Origin: Gemmatimonadales bacterium
Lineage (GTDB): Bacteria > Gemmatimonadota > Gemmatimonadetes > Longimicrobiales > Gaopeijiaceae
Direction of reading: 5' to 3'
Length of the DNA: 34,652 nt
Assembly (NCBI GenBank): GCA_007692665.1
Contig: REBP01000241.1
Location: 1-34,652 of the forward strand
The translations under genes were made by a program, and so were the position numbers. The notes beneath the pieces were generated by a model. The model did no database searches. It worked only from the letters and a program-made list of their open reading frames with translations, and was not told the origin of the DNA. Shown here one piece after another: positions 6,172 to 12,068 of this stretch (the stretch's first letter is position 1; each line of letters begins with the position of its first letter).

Positions 6172-6996
6172 TCAGAGCAGGGAAAGCTGTCCGGTGTGCC
6201 CCGCCGAAGTCCTCAGCTCCAGGAGGTCGAGCAACTCCGTGGGCGCCTCCTGGCAGGCCACGCCGAGCCAGCCCCTCCACCTCGCGTTCTCCAGGACCGC
6301 GCCCACCACCGCGCGGGCGCGCTCCGGGTCGTTGCACGATGCCGAGAGGTGCGCGAGCAGAACGCCCGCCAGCCCCGGATGCACGAGCTCCGAAAGAAAC
6401 CGCGCCGCCGCGTGGTTGGACAGGTGCCCGTGGGAAGACGCGATCCGCTGCTGGACCGAGGGGGGATAGGGTCCGATCCGGAGAAGGCCCTCGTCGTGAT
6501 TGGCCTCGAGGATCAGGAAATGGCACCCCGAAAGGGCGTGCCGAACCCCCGCCGAGGGTCGTCCCAGGTCGGTGGCGACGCCCACCCGCGTTCCGCAGCA
6601 GGTGGAGGTGACGGTAACCGCGATGGGATCCACCGCATCGTGAACCGTGAGAAACGGCTCGAAGCGGAAGGCCCCGATCTCGAAGGGTCGCCCTGCCGAG
6701 TATTCCTCCACCTGTTCCGTCCCTCGAAAGAGCGCGGTGGTGGCCTCCCGGGTGGCCGGGGTGAGGTAGACGGGCGTGCCGTAGCGGCGGGCGAAGACGC
6801 CGGCTCCGCGCGTATGGTCGCCATGCTCGTGCGTCACGACGAGGGCATCGATCGACCCGGGATCCACGCCGAGGATCTCCAGGCGTTCCGCAAGCTGGCG
6901 GCCCGAGAAGCCGGCGTCCACCAGGACGCGCGTGCCCCCGGTCTCGAGGTAGGTGGCATTCCCCCGGCTCCCGCTCCCCAGCATCGCGAGCTTCAT
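6172..6996 (-). CDS. YycJ/WalJ-type metallo-beta-lactamase-fold hydrolase
   Basis: A 274-residue cytoplasmic metallo-hydrolase. It starts MKLAMLGSGSRGNATYLE, the usual opening of the YycJ group, and carries the dinuclear zinc motif HEHGDH at residues 56-61. A later SSHGHLSNHAAARFL supplies further metal-ligand histidines, and GVATDLG fits the acidic ligand position. Family members are predicted nucleases or phosphodiesterases; the substrate is not established. The ATG at 6996 overlaps the stop of the upstream GlmU-like gene by four bases, so the two are co-translated. The frame stays open upstream inside that gene but has no family sequence there. It converges with the emfourin-like gene across 25 bases. 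Confidence 0.88.
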   Translation of the reverse strand: MKLAMLGSGSRGNATYLETGGTRVLVDAGFSGRQLAERLEILGVDPGSIDALVVTHEHGDHTRGAGVFARRYGTPVYLTPATREATTALFRGTEQVEEYSAGRPFEIGAFRFEPFLTVHDAVDPIAVTVTSTCCGTRVGVATDLGRPSAGVRHALSGCHFLILEANHDEGLLRIGPYPPSVQQRIASSHGHLSNHAAARFLSELVHPGLAGVLLAHLSASCNDPERARAVVGAVLENARWRGWLGVACQEAPTELLDLLELRTSAGHTGQLSLL

Positions 6997-8288
6997 GGCT
7001 CCCCGTGGGTCGCTTCCCACAGCTTCACGAGGGCGCCGCGTTCCGAGTCGGAAAGCTCTGCGTCCCGCCGTGCCATGGCTCTTCCCGCCACCGTGAGGAA
7101 AGCCTCCAGACGGCAGGCGGTGAGGTTCTCGCCGGCGCCCCACGAGAAGGGGGGGACCCAGCGAGGGGGCAGACCGGCACCGGCAAAGAGCGTGGAGCCT
7201 GCTCCCACAACGGTTCCCGTGTTCAGGAGGGTTCCGATTCCGGTCTTCACGTGGTCACCCAGGAGCACTCCGATCTTGAGGAGCCCCGTATCCTCGGTCT
7301 CCGTGGCCGAAAGGGGGACACGCACGGACCCATAGGTGTTCTTCAGATCCGAGTTCGTCGTGAAGGCCCCGAGATTCACCCACCGCCCCAGGACGGCGTG
7401 GCCCAGGTAGCCGTCGTGGGCCTTGTTGCACCATCCGTTGAGGACGGAGGCCTCGATCTCGCCCCGAAGGCGGCAGACCGGTCCGGCGGACAGGTTCGAG
7501 AAGATGCCGCCCTGGAGGCGACTGTGGGCTCCGATCCACGCCGGCCCCTCGACGCGGGTGAGGGCCTGGACCCGGACCCCGTCGCCGAGGTGAATGGGAC
7601 CCTTTCGGGCATCGAGAACCACCTGTGGGTCCACCTCCACGTCGGCGCCGACGGTCACCGGGTAGGAGCCCAGCACGAAGACCCCGGGGGGAAGGGGGGA
7701 AAGTGGCCGGGCGGCAGAGGGTGGGGCGTCGAGGAGGTCCCGCGTGATCCGCTCCCCGTTCTGCTCCATGAGCTCCCAGGGGGAGGCGAGCACCGAGCCG
7801 TGGATCACGAACTGTCGAAACTCCCGACCGTCGGGGTCGCCGCGATTGCCGCGATCGCCGGAGGGCGGCAAGAGGTCGGGCCCCGACAGGGGGAACCTGT
7901 CGGCGGATCCCGCCACGTCGCCGGAGGCCGTGACGAGTGCGAGGGGGCCATGCACACCGGCCCGGAGCCGGGCGACGATGGCCTCGACGGGAATGCGCCG
8001 GTCCGGCACGAAGCGCGGGTCCACCCGGATCTCGAAGATCGCAGGGTCCTCGGCCTCCCCCGCGTCGCGAAGGTCATGGTCGATGGAACCCACCGCCTGC
8101 ATCCCGGCGGCCTCCTCGATCCGTGCCTCCAGCGTCTTCGTTCCGAAGAGGAGGCCGCCGAGGGAGCGGGTTTCCGCGAAGGGGGCCCATCGCCGCCCCT
8201 CGTCGCCGTCGGGGCCCAGCCGGACCCGGAGCCGGACCTGGCCGTCGGCGCGCGGGGTCGGAGGGGAGCGGGGGTCAGAGCTGGCCAA
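6993..8288 (-). CDS. GlmU-like nucleotidyltransferase / left-handed beta-helix acyltransferase
   Basis: A 431-residue protein of the alternative GlmU-like group. The N-terminal half looks like a degenerate sugar-1-phosphate nucleotidyltransferase (WAPFAETRSLGGLLFGTKTLEARIE). SPWELMEQNGERITRDL follows, and then a left-handed beta-helix with hexapeptide periodicity, including IHLGDGVRVQALTRVEGPAWIGAHSRLQGG. GWCNKAHDGYLGHAVLGRWVNLGAFTTNSDLKNTYG is the acetyltransferase-like active region. The likely role is UDP-N-acetylglucosamine or related nucleotide-sugar formation, but the exact substrate is unproven. The best start is TTG at 8288, overlapping the response-regulator gene by 14 bases; no better start was seen. 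It overlaps the YycJ-like gene by four bases. Confidence 0.8.
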   Translation of the reverse strand: MASSDPRSPPTPRADGQVRLRVRLGPDGDEGRRWAPFAETRSLGGLLFGTKTLEARIEEAAGMQAVGSIDHDLRDAGEAEDPAIFEIRVDPRFVPDRRIPVEAIVARLRAGVHGPLALVTASGDVAGSADRFPLSGPDLLPPSGDRGNRGDPDGREFRQFVIHGSVLASPWELMEQNGERITRDLLDAPPSAARPLSPLPPGVFVLGSYPVTVGADVEVDPQVVLDARKGPIHLGDGVRVQALTRVEGPAWIGAHSRLQGGIFSNLSAGPVCRLRGEIEASVLNGWCNKAHDGYLGHAVLGRWVNLGAFTTNSDLKNTYGSVRVPLSATETEDTGLLKIGVLLGDHVKTGIGTLLNTGTVVGAGSTLFAGAGLPPRWVPPFSWGAGENLTACRLEAFLTVAGRAMARRDAELSDSERGALVKLWEATHGEP

Positions 8289-8679
8289 GGATCTCGTCCA
8301 CGCGGTTCAGGAACTTCTTCGGCGAGAACGGTTTCGTGATGAAATCCGTGGCGCCGAGCCGGAAGGCTTCCTCCCGGTCCACGTCCTGACCCTTCGCAGT
8401 GAGGATCACCACCGGAATGTCCTTCCGGTGCGGGAGCCGTTTCAGTTCCTCGAGAAGCTCGAGACCCGTGGCCTCCGGCATCATGATGTCCATGAGGATG
8501 AGGTCGTACGGCGTGTCCCCCTGCAGCCTGACCCTGGCCTCTCCCCCGTGGATCGCCACGTCCACCCTGAACCCCGATTCCTCGAGGAGCGTGACCAGGA
8601 TCCGGCGGATGTGGGGCTCGTCTTCCGCCACCATGATCCGGAGCGAACCGGCGGGGCGAGGCGGCGGTGCGTCGGCCAT
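8275..8679 (-). CDS. Single-domain response regulator (CheY-like receiver)
   Basis: A 134-residue receiver with no output domain. The acidic pocket is AEDE (Glu19, Asp20), the phospho-acceptor is Asp64 in ILMDIMMPE, and Thr94 and Lys116 complete the site. The ATG at 8679 was chosen because GGAG lies six bases upstream; the ATG at 8691 is possible and adds four residues. The frame continues much further upstream, but across the promoter region. It heads a three-gene minus-strand operon and is driven by the promoter at 8765-8793. A histidine kinase without an adjacent regulator lies in the divergent operon at 10872-12068 and is a candidate partner (inference). Confidence 0.9.
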   Translation of the reverse strand: MADAPPPRPAGSLRIMVAEDEPHIRRILVTLLEESGFRVDVAIHGGEARVRLQGDTPYDLILMDIMMPEATGLELLEELKRLPHRKDIPVVILTAKGQDVDREEAFRLGATDFITKPFSPKKFLNRVDEILGQL

Positions 8680-8764
8680 TGCGAACTCCATCGGGTGCGG
8701 AGACGACTGGAGGATCGGCGGAAAAGCGAGCGGACAGCGGCCCTCCTCACCGGTGGGCGGCGGG

Positions 8765-8793
8765 AACCTACCCGGCGGGCGGTGTAAAGTCAA
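8765..8793 (-). promoter_or_regulatory. Sigma70-type promoter for the response-regulator operon
   Basis: On the minus strand, TTGACT (8793-8788) and TAGGTT (8770-8765) are separated by 17 bases. This predicts transcription starting near 8758, about 80 bases before the ATG at 8679. The boxes stand out in the GC-rich context. Assigned by pattern only. Confidence 0.6.
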
Positions 8794-8794
8794 G

Positions 8795-8810
8795 GAAACC
8801 GGGGGGTTTC
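8795..8810. promoter_or_regulatory. Palindrome between divergent promoters, candidate shared operator
   Basis: GAAACC, then GGGG, then GGTTTC: a perfect 6-bp inverted repeat with a 4-bp centre. It sits between the two -35 boxes (8788-8793 on the minus strand and 8815-8820 on the plus strand), where one bound protein could affect both promoters. The regulator is unknown. The response regulator encoded next to it has no DNA-binding domain. Confidence 0.5.
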
Positions 8811-8814
8811 GGGG

Positions 8815-8844
8815 TTGACACTCCCCTCCCCGCCCCGGTAGCGT
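8815..8844 (+). promoter_or_regulatory. Sigma70-type promoter for the lipoprotein-serS-kinase operon
   Basis: A consensus TTGACA (8815-8820), an 18-base spacer and TAGCGT (8839-8844). The predicted start near 8851 is 37 bases before the GTG at 8888, or about 130 before the alternative GTG at 8981. The -35 box is perfect and the -10 box weaker. Confidence 0.6.
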
Positions 8845-8887
8845 ACGAGTCTCCCGAGTTCGATCCTTTCGGCCCCCCGGACGATCC

Positions 8888-9568
8888 GTGACCCCTGACC
8901 GCACCCTGTCCCGTACCGCCCCGTCCAGCGCCCGGCCCTGCGCTCCTTCCGGCGTATCGGCCTCCGCCGCACCGGCACCGGTGAACCGCGCGCTCCCGCG
9001 TACCCGGGTCCCTCGCGTCCTCCTTGGCGCGGCCCTCGTGCTGCTGGTCTCGGTGCTGCCGGCCTGCGGCGACGACCCGTTCCTCTTCCGGTGGACCGAG
9101 AACCCCAGGGAAGCCTTTCTCTATTCCCTGGACCGGGACGAGAGGAACCGACCCTCCGCCTTCGAGATGGCGCAGGGCCGCCGGATCGTGCTGGAGAGCG
9201 CGGCGGCCGCCGGGCTCTGGGATTTCGCCCTGGACACCCGCGACGGCGTCCTGGTCTTCCTCCCCCCCCGGTCCGTCGGGGTCCAGTCCCGGGCCGGGAT
9301 GGTCGAGTTTCCGGACACGCGGTACGACGAGGTCCTGATGGCCCCCGGCGACACGGCGGCCTACACGACGCGGGAGCCGCTGCCGGTGCGCATGGGCTCG
9401 ATCTATGTGGTCCGGACGCGGGAACAGCCCGGGGTCTTCGGGCAGACCTGCGTCTACTACGGCAAGGTGCAGCCCCTGGAGATCGATCCGGTGGCGGGGA
9501 CCCTCCTTTTCCGCTTCGACACGAGCCCCGACTGCAACAATCCGAGTCTCGTTCCGCCGGGGAGCTGA
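8888..9568 (+). CDS. Lipoprotein of unknown function
   Basis: A 226-residue protein from GTG 8888. A hydrophobic stretch (VLLGAALVLLVSVLPAC) ends in a lipobox with the lipidated Cys at residue 60. The GTG at 8981 would give a textbook 28-residue signal (Cys29) and may be the true start; neither has a clear Shine-Dalgarno. The mature part opens GDDPFLFRWTENPREAFLYSLDR and has LWDFALDTRDGVLVFLPP, IYVVRTRE and CVYYGKVQPL, with a Cys pair near the end (CVYY, DCNN) that may form a disulfide. The pattern reminds me of lipoproteins common in Gemmatimonadota, but I know no function. It is first in an operon with serS three bases on. Confidence 0.8.
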   Translation: MTPDRTLSRTAPSSARPCAPSGVSASAAPAPVNRALPRTRVPRVLLGAALVLLVSVLPACGDDPFLFRWTENPREAFLYSLDRDERNRPSAFEMAQGRRIVLESAAAAGLWDFALDTRDGVLVFLPPRSVGVQSRAGMVEFPDTRYDEVLMAPGDTAAYTTREPLPVRMGSIYVVRTREQPGVFGQTCVYYGKVQPLEIDPVAGTLLFRFDTSPDCNNPSLVPPGS

Positions 9569-9571
9569 GTC

Positions 9572-10849
9572 GTGCTTGACCTCAGGCTCCTCCGGAGCGA
9601 TCCGGAGACGGTTCGCCGTGCTCTCTCTCGCAGGGGCGGAGACACCGGCGCGGGCGTCGTGGACGAACTCCTGGCTCACGACGAGCGGCGGCGGGCGGCG
9701 ATCACCGAGGTGGACGCGCTCAAGGCGGAGCGAAACGAGGCCTCCCGCAAGGTGGGCGAGATCAAGCGGGCCGGCGGTGACGCGGAAGCCCTGATCCTCC
9801 GGACGCGGGCCGTGGGAGAGCGGATCTCGGAACTGGACCGGGTCGTGGCGGCCTCCGACGAAGCCATCGGCGACCTGCTTCTGGCGACGCCCAACCTTCC
9901 GGACCCCGCCGTGCCCGAGGGTGGGGTGGAGTCGAACCAGGTCATGCGCGCCTGGGGAGATCCGGTCCAGCACCCGTTCGCGGCGCTTCCGCACTGGGAA
10001 CTCGGGGAGCGCCTGGGACTTCTGGACCTGCCCGGTGGTGCAAGCATCTCGGGCTCCGGTTTCCCGGTTCTGCGGGGGCGGGGTGCGCGGCTCCAGCGCG
10101 CCCTCATCGACTGGATGCTGGACATCCACACGGAGAACCACGGCTACGAGGAACTCCGTGTTCCCTACCTGGTGACGCGGGAGAGCATGATCGGGACGGG
10201 ACAGCTCCCCAAGTTCGAGGAGGAATCGTACCTCGCCGAGCGGGACGGACTCTGGCTGATCCCCACGGCGGAGGTGCCCGTCACGAACCTCCACCGGGAC
10301 TCGATCCTCGATGCGGGGGAACTCCCCCTTCGCTACACCGCCTACTCCCCCTGCTTCCGGCGGGAGGCGGGCGCTGCGGGGAAGGACACGCGGGGACTCC
10401 TCCGGGTGCACCAGTTCGACAAGGTCGAGCTCGTGCGGCTCGAGCGCCCCGAGCGTTCGGCGGATGCGCTGGAGGAACTCACCGCCGAGGCCGAGTCCAT
10501 CCTCCAGAAGCTGGGCCTGGCGTACCGCGTCCTGCGCCTTGCCGCCGGGGACCTCGGGTTCTCCGCCCGCATGACCTACGACCTCGAGGTGTGGGCGCCG
10601 GGTGTGGAGCGCTGGCTCGAGGTTTCGTCGTGCTCGAACTTCGGCGACTACCAGGCCCGCCGGACCAACCTGCGGTACCGTCCGGAGCCCGGAGCGAAGC
10701 CCGAGTTCCTGCACACGCTGAACGGCTCCGCCCTCGCCCTCCCCCGCCTGATCGTGGCGCTCCTCGAGACGTACCAGGAGGAGGACGGGTCGGTGACCCT
10801 TCCGGAAGTGCTCAGGGACCGGACGGGCATGACCCGAATCGAGCCCTGA
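9572..10849 (+). CDS. serS: Seryl-tRNA synthetase
   Basis: Charges tRNA-Ser in the cytoplasm. The protein is 425 residues, the usual size. The N-terminal coiled-coil arm for tRNA binding spans about residues 25-105. Class II motif 2 is FRREAGAAGKDTRGLLRVHQFDKVEL and motif 3 is NGSALALPRLIVALLETYQ. The serine and ATP site includes PTAEVPVTNLH. The GTG at 9572 has GGAG seven bases upstream, overlapping the end of the lipoprotein gene three bases before. The histidine kinase starts 22 bases downstream, an unusual partner for a synthetase that probably just shares the transcript. Confidence 0.97.
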   Translation: MLDLRLLRSDPETVRRALSRRGGDTGAGVVDELLAHDERRRAAITEVDALKAERNEASRKVGEIKRAGGDAEALILRTRAVGERISELDRVVAASDEAIGDLLLATPNLPDPAVPEGGVESNQVMRAWGDPVQHPFAALPHWELGERLGLLDLPGGASISGSGFPVLRGRGARLQRALIDWMLDIHTENHGYEELRVPYLVTRESMIGTGQLPKFEEESYLAERDGLWLIPTAEVPVTNLHRDSILDAGELPLRYTAYSPCFRREAGAAGKDTRGLLRVHQFDKVELVRLERPERSADALEELTAEAESILQKLGLAYRVLRLAAGDLGFSARMTYDLEVWAPGVERWLEVSSCSNFGDYQARRTNLRYRPEPGAKPEFLHTLNGSALALPRLIVALLETYQEEDGSVTLPEVLRDRTGMTRIEP

Positions 10850-10871: not shown

Positions 10872-12068
10872 ATGGTGAGGATGCGCTGGTCCCTGGTCCT
10901 GGCCCTCGCCTTCCTGGCGATCCTGGGGTGGTACCTGCTCTACACGGAGCAGATCGTCCGCACCTTCCGGGCCGACGTGACCACGATGACCCGCATGTAC
11001 GCCGAGGTCCAGGCGGGGCTCCAGGACCCCGAACCCGGAGGAACCACTGCGGCGCTGGCCCGCCTCCAGGACATCATTGTCGAGTCGGGCCTCCCCCTCG
11101 TGCTGTCGAGCCAGGGCGACACGATCATCGGGGCGGTGAACCTCCCCTTCGAGGCCGATCTCTCGACACCCGAAGGCCAGGCCAGGGTGCAGCTCTACAT
11201 CCGGAGGCTCGAGGCCCGGAACCCGCCCGTGGGGGATCCGGAGATCGCGCGAATCCACTACGGCGACCCGCCGGAGCTGCAGCGTCTGCGGTGGATCCCC
11301 TGGCTCCAGGTCACGGGGCTCCTCCTCACCTTCCTGGTGGGGGTCCTCGTGGTCCGGGCCCAGCGCCGCGCCGAGACCGACCAGGCGTGGACGGCCATGG
11401 CCCGGGAACTCGCCCACCAGCTGGGCACGCCGATCTCGTCGCTCCAGGGCTGGCTCGAGGTGCTCAGGCTCCCCCACGGCGAGCGTCCGGGTGAACTCGG
11501 CGACCCGGTCATCGCCGCCGAGATCGGCGAGGACGTGGAACGCCTGGAGCGGGTGAGCCGCCGCTTCGAACTCATCGGCCGGGAGACTCCGCTCCGTTCT
11601 CTCCCCCTGGCCCAGGTCACCGGCGCCGTGGAACGCTACCTGAGGGCCCGCATGCCCCGCCTGGGGCCGGGGGTCGCGCTCGAGGTCCGCATGCCCTCCG
11701 ACCTCCCCGACGTGCAGGGGAGCGAGGTCCTCCTGACCTGGGCGCTGGAGAACATCGTGAAGAACGCGCTGGACGCGCTGGCGGGGCAGGGGGGAGAGAT
11801 CCGCATCGAGGGGTTCCATCGGGAGCCGGAATGGGTGATCCTGATGATCGAGGACAACGGCCCCGGCATCGACCCGGTGGTCCGGGACCGGATCTTCGAG
11901 GCGGGGGCCACGACGAAGTCGAGCGGGTGGGGCGTGGGGCTCGCCCTCTCGCAGCGCATCGTCGAGCGGGTTCACGGCGGTACGCTCCGGGTGGCCCGCA
12001 CCGGTCCCGAGGGCACCGCCTTCGAACTCCGCCTCCCGGTTGCCGCCGCTCCGGCAGCCACCGCCTGA
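10872..12068 (+). CDS. Membrane sensor histidine kinase
   Basis: A 398-residue kinase with membrane helices near residues 6-24 and 142-163 and a small extracytoplasmic sensor region of about 115 residues between them. There is no obvious HAMP or PAS domain. The phospho-acceptor is His182 in MARELAHQLGTPISSLQGWLE. The ATPase has ENIVKNALDAL (N box), DNGPGID (G1), IFEAGATTK and GWGVGLALS (G2). All catalytic motifs are intact. No response regulator is adjacent on this strand; the nearest is the one-domain regulator of the divergent operon at 8275-8679. The signal sensed is unknown. It follows serS by 22 bases. Confidence 0.92.
   Translation: MVRMRWSLVLALAFLAILGWYLLYTEQIVRTFRADVTTMTRMYAEVQAGLQDPEPGGTTAALARLQDIIVESGLPLVLSSQGDTIIGAVNLPFEADLSTPEGQARVQLYIRRLEARNPPVGDPEIARIHYGDPPELQRLRWIPWLQVTGLLLTFLVGVLVVRAQRRAETDQAWTAMARELAHQLGTPISSLQGWLEVLRLPHGERPGELGDPVIAAEIGEDVERLERVSRRFELIGRETPLRSLPLAQVTGAVERYLRARMPRLGPGVALEVRMPSDLPDVQGSEVLLTWALENIVKNALDALAGQGGEIRIEGFHREPEWVILMIEDNGPGIDPVVRDRIFEAGATTKSSGWGVGLALSQRIVERVHGGTLRVARTGPEGTAFELRLPVAAAPAATA

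Follow-up and report, generated by a model that had tools for sequence, protein, structure and literature searches.

Divergent promoter pairs arranged back to back are common in bacteria. Promoters of the E. coli type may also carry UP elements, which are A/T patches upstream of the -35 box about one helical turn apart. In E. coli the C-terminal domains of the RNA polymerase alpha subunit bind roughly at such positions, and the distances used below are those of E. coli work. Bidirectional promoters form a further class, for which two reports describe a shared -10 element with transcript starts at a distance of 7-25 bp from each other, 18 in the usual case (PMC12825309, PMC10268837). The locus studied here resembles ordinary back-to-back pairs in that two promoters lie on opposite strands with their upstream parts facing each other, but a mere 21-23 bp separate its -35 boxes, and the length and content of the gap between them are kept family-wide, while other parts of the phylum have related forms. 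It is also like bidirectional promoters, since a short piece of DNA would drive divergent transcripts and polymerase binding could be mutually exclusive (PMC12825309, PMC10268837). However, about 93 bp would separate the starts expected from the -10 positions (near 8758 on the minus and near 8851 on the plus strand), and the two promoters have no core element in common, so that, judged by these predicted starts, the locus does not appear to belong to the bidirectional class in the form described there. With UP elements it has in common A/T patches upstream of the -35 boxes, about one turn apart and conserved at a fixed distance from them; in contrast, the patches are here only 2-3 bp long and lie in G/C-rich DNA between two promoters, and alpha binding is putative. 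The locus is rightly classed with plain back-to-back divergent promoters, as either strand has predicted -35 and -10 elements at accepted spacing and the -35 boxes face each other. What stands out is the age and the fixed spacing of the pair and not a new principle. Literature searches returned nothing joining Gemmatimonadota with a divergent promoter, nothing joining Gemmatimonadetes with seryl-tRNA synthetase and histidine kinase, and nothing of direct bearing on Gemmatimonas start sites.

An earlier note on this DNA had described two divergent promoters flanking a perfect palindrome, at which a single factor could set both operons together. All elements that it named were found by sequence inspection where it had placed them and with the letters it had given (Table 1), the spacer being 17 bases long in the minus and 18 in the plus promoter. 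The palindrome is indeed nearly centred, with one base (8794) to the minus -35 box and four (8811-8814) to the plus -35 box. A strict sigma-70 consensus scan of 8200-9400 listed zero sites, because TAGGTT and TAGCGT are poor matches to TATAAT. The pattern TTGAC-N16-19-GGTAGNNTTC occurs at four other places in the genome and the promoter type itself is therefore not special. Back-to-back TTGAC boxes as a common genome arrangement were considered and rejected, with four forward matches including the studied locus versus two in a reversed control. Among the neighbouring genes, the response regulator showed no second domain by Pfam, and no DNA-binding domain, and the lipoprotein matched no known family in Pfam or NCBIfam. 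An Rfam search of 8250-9600 at E up to 1 gave no structured RNA match.

Table 1. Promoter elements and neighbouring genes, with positions in the window, i.e. the whole 34,652-nt stretch of DNA that was analysed
Feature	Position	Strand	Remarks
GlmU-like UDP-GlcNAc diphosphorylase/acetyltransferase	6993-8288	-	NCBIfam TIGR03991 above cut-off; gene after regulator
Response regulator, receiver domain only	8275-8691 (start 8691 or 8679)	-	Pfam Response_reg E 1.6e-29
Minus -10 TAGGTT (plus-strand letters AACCTA)	8765-8770	-	Letters checked; faces response regulator
Minus promoter spacer, 17 bp	8771-8787	-	Conserved TTTACACC adjoining TTGAC of -35
Minus -35 TTGACT (plus-strand letters AGTCAA)	8788-8793	-	Letters checked; exact GTCAA in relatives
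Gap between -35 boxes, 21 bp	8794-8814	.	Conserved core G.AA....cgggG.TTT.CGGGG
Palindrome GAAACC-GGGG-GGTTTC	8795-8810	.	Present; chance-level, not kept in relatives
Plus -35 TTGACA	8815-8820	+	Letters checked; kept in relatives
Plus -10 TAGCGT	8839-8844	+	Letters checked; faces lipoprotein-serS-kinase
Probable lipoprotein, first gene of plus operon	8888-9568	+	From N-terminal sequence, not prediction tool
serS, seryl-tRNA synthetase	9572-10849	+	TIGR00414 above cut-off
Sensor histidine kinase	10872-12068	+	Pfam HATPase_c E 4.3e-21; HisKA below cut-off

For the comparison with relatives 121 loci were carried forward and 113 used, after eight without a lipoprotein match at E 1e-3 had been omitted; weak or partial matches were included in part (not, e.g., G003, G032, G026, G034, G036, G038, G044, G085). 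Of 121 family genomes, 114 have a relative of the lipoprotein; the close relatives named are Gemmatimonadota MAGs. The regulator is divergent and adjacent in 70 of the 113 loci, and 43 loci are without it. Where several box pairs fitted one locus, the pair closest to a 22-bp gap was chosen. Exact GTCAA...TTGAC boxes 18-23 bp apart were present in 65 of the 70 regulator-bearing loci, 63 of them with a gap of 21-23 bp (38 at 22, 20 at 21, 5 at 23, and one each at 20 and 18); the remaining five comprised two loci without boxes in range and three with one mismatch. Gap length had a mean of 21.68 bp and a standard deviation (sd) of 0.77, while the distances to the two genes varied with sd 25.9 and 28.2. 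A minus -10 of the form TA...T stood 16-18 bp from the -35 box in 65/65 loci (TAGGTT in 60/65), and a plus -10 of this form at 16-19 bp in 41/65, the other 24 retaining two of the three key bases. In a conservation profile of 64 of the 65 exact-box loci (gap 20-23), mean column information was 0.87 for the gap, about as high as the 0.84 of the minus promoter, and dropped to 0.19 (plus spacer) and 0.06 (outer flank); the loci were chosen by exact boxes, so that box conservation is there by construction, which does not hold for the -10s and the gap. In contrast to the plus spacer, the minus spacer is conserved, with values of 0.87-0.95 for most columns of GG.GTAAA. At locus L003 from the same genus, the minus -10, minus -35 and plus -35 were each identical in 6/6 bases and the plus -10 in 5/6, as compared to 12/18 in the plus spacer and 30/51 in the upstream DNA.

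Exact boxes also occurred in 26 of the 43 loci without the regulator (gap 15-32 bp, 21/26 at 20-23). In most of these box-bearing loci a sugar-nucleotidyltransferase-like frame could be read downstream, the start of which usually resembles, judged by its motif, that of a mannose-1-phosphate guanylyltransferase. A more distant set, hand-picked from 80 loci returned, consisted of 10 Gemmatimonadota records (serS identity up to 60 percent), five from other phyla and five within the family. The boxes were kept in 7/10 of the distant Gemmatimonadota records, with gaps of 21, 21, 22 and four of 14 bp, and in 0/5 serS loci of other phyla. Since the boxes are intact in the four records with 14-bp gaps, the 21-23 bp geometry is not required phylum-wide. 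The two divergent promoters of the earlier note are thus borne out by strong comparative evidence, i.e. exact boxes in 65/70 loci, a fixed gap and -10s in register; the pair is conserved far beyond chance and both predicted promoters are strongly supported. With boxes, -10s and fixed gap kept across a large Gemmatimonadota group, this is most likely an ordinary but unusually old divergent pair. Promoters can seldom be traced across such protein divergence, most regulator matches among the relatives sharing about 50-70 percent of residues.

The palindrome, on the other hand, is the wrong element to chase, which corrects the earlier finding; most likely it arose by chance from conserved GAAA-like and TTTC-like stretches, and not through upkeep of pairing, and has no role of its own. 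Dinucleotide shuffling of the 80-bp interval produced a 6-base inverted repeat with a loop of 3-8 in 618 of 2000 trials, and shuffling of the 21-bp gap did so in 779 of 2000; the whole window holds 100 such repeats, or 0.23 per 80 bp. At L003 the arms read AAAACC and GCTTTC: 10/12 arm bases are the same, 2/6 pairs are broken and none is compensated, which is the very outcome that the earlier note had named as refuting its proposal of a palindrome bound by one factor. The alignment of relatives that it had suggested as a check gave no sign of upkeep, as 12 near relatives (own locus included, 21-bp gap) had 33 pairs versus 32.9 by column shuffle, a value reached in 1198 of 2000 shuffles. Among 87 other exact-box loci the arms paired in 2.18 of 6 positions versus 2.04 (sd 0.07) with random partners; the excess is small and the test does not correct for relatedness. 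Full pairing in the palindrome register was seen in 2/87. The genome scan for further copies, likewise suggested, covered exact matches in 4.23 Mb and found the pattern once, at the studied locus, and not at all in a reversed control. The palindrome was also listed as terminator-like on the minus strand, and this was rejected: it has six pairs, one such element was found versus 0.5 expected, and it lies upstream of both expected starts.

That the palindrome serves as an operator at which one dimeric factor controls both operons is a reading which we regard as very improbable. The repeat is exact, nearly centred and unique in the genome, at L005 another exact 6-bp repeat stands in a shifted register, and some 6-bp repeat is present in 5/88 loci versus 2.1 expected. 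Against this stand the uncompensated breaks at L003, the missing covariation in the clade, a frequency at chance level and the lack of a second copy; the arms appear neither kept nor changed together, and copies at other targets were not found, although a factor with one site would also give a single copy. Sequence comparison has largely refuted this reading. The broader proposal of one shared control survives in part, as gap bases are constrained and a shared control region is plausible, but the palindrome as its device fails.

The conserved gap has A/T patches at positions 3-4 and 14-16, where the A/T fraction was 0.90-1.00, though loci with a 21-bp gap had 0.65 at position 16. It was low at most other positions outside 5-7; positions 8-13, and those from 17 or 18 to the plus -35, are mostly G/C. 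The patches, AA on the side of the minus -35 and TTT on that of the plus -35, are 11-12 bp apart, about one helical turn, and would fall near -43 and -54 from the plus promoter and near -38 and -50 from the minus promoter. A sequence-only model of the core (R1, built from 65 sequences) found one significant place in the own genome (E 2e-12; next 0.58). Of 121 phylum genomes 21 matched at E up to 0.05; strong matches occurred once per genome and lay at the studied locus by coordinate comparison, and weak ones (E 0.02-0.05) were found in G218, G165, G141 and at a second place in G107. Stricter filters in this search lose weak matches, and some family genomes (e.g. in g36 and g11) had none. The core is single-copy and therefore not a widely used operator. 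No exact genome copy of the gap sequence TTTYCGGGGTTGAC was found. That the gap might be generic promoter context was rejected, as TTTYCGGGGTTGAC with up to one mismatch occurs at four places including the studied locus, with TTGAC in only one of the other three. A long inverted repeat GGKGT...ACMCC with covarying letters, promising at first, was unsupported on the tree.

Because the patch positions approximate the alpha C-terminal domain sites of E. coli, we favour, tentatively and with somewhat less than even confidence, a pair of back-to-back housekeeping-type promoters with the gap as one shared upstream platform. Ordinary RNA polymerase would read each promoter from the starts given above, and the conserved gap would be a single upstream platform common to both. 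At the plus promoter the AA and TTT patches would be suitably placed for the proximal and distal alpha C-terminal domain sites, and at the minus promoter the fit would be approximate; the two promoters would compete for the gap or become co-tuned by it. The comparison supports the predicted promoters, gap length, conserved patches and single copy; what we infer is alpha binding, competition or co-tuning, and the start sites. A shared platform is consistent with the exact boxes (65/70), the narrow gap (sd 0.77), the -10s in register and the information in the gap compared to the plus spacer (0.87 vs 0.19), as well as with the conserved A/T patches, the single-copy core and the retention of boxes in 7/10 distant Gemmatimonadota versus 0/5 from other phyla. 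It is weakened by the lack of exact copies of TTTYCGGGGTTGAC, since a gap that is only an alpha site might be expected to recur at other strong promoters, by the 14-bp gap between intact boxes in four distant records, and by the conserved minus spacer (TTTACMCC), which alpha binding would leave unexplained.

As the minus spacer is conserved as well, the main rival to the shared platform is a dedicated transcription factor that would bind the core (GGKGTAAAGTCAAG.AA ... TTT.CGGGGTTGAC) and not the palindrome, covering the minus -35, minus spacer and gap and setting both operons. We consider such a factor possible but rather unlikely. Conservation reaching into the minus spacer and not the plus spacer, a core seen at this locus alone, as expected of a one-site regulator, and a gap length fixed within the family would fit it, while the local response regulator is without a DNA-binding domain and no candidate regulator was found. 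The pairing of GGTGT with TTGACACC and of GGGGT with TTGACCCC perhaps reflects only lineage inheritance; on the tree, supported branches gave three independent pairs, few of which differed in the second trait, and the sign test was powerless. Less probable still would be two independent promoters lying close by chance, with no coupling, and with a gap that is conserved merely for the upstream contacts which each requires. Both promoters are intact at 14-bp gaps in the four distant records and the boxes persist beside a different divergent gene in the 26/43 loci without the regulator, as independence would allow. However, the gap is held to sd 0.77 while the gene distances drift, and with about 93 bp between the expected starts two polymerases would hardly fit without contact. 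With gaps of 14 and 20-23 bp, the pair offers a well-aligned natural series in which to ask whether polymerases that face each other cooperate, block one another or act independently.

Taken to its furthest, the shared platform would make the 45-bp core a single-copy switch, family-wide and with relatives elsewhere in Gemmatimonadota. Opposed polymerases would share one pair of alpha patches, so that the tRNA-synthetase/sensor-kinase operon and the gene opposite to it, be it a lone receiver regulator or a sugar-nucleotide gene, would be expressed in fixed ratio or in alternation, with no dedicated regulator. We regard this extension as improbable. Joint control of regulator and kinase as a two-component pair is unproven, because the regulator is receiver-only and the boxes persist when another gene replaces it.

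In the loci of relatives the lipoprotein directly precedes serS wherever serS is visible. In many relatives a sensor kinase downstream of serS is again accompanied by a receiver-only regulator on the other side of the promoter pair, and the kinase at 10872-12068 and the regulator at 8275-8691 may be partners. Upstream of serS in the distant Gemmatimonadota loci L171, L176, L177 and L189, the -35 boxes are exactly 14 bp apart and both -10s are present by eye. A clade of 26 rows with GGGGTAAAGTCAA (L006, L010, L012, L014, L048 and others) has a plus -10 region like GGCACCTTTC or GAACTTC and not GGTAGTCTTC. In genus g36 (L064, L074, L093, L100, L107) the plus -10 (TAGAAT or alike) lies a few bases before the lipoprotein ATG, a position that suggests a leaderless transcript in this genus.
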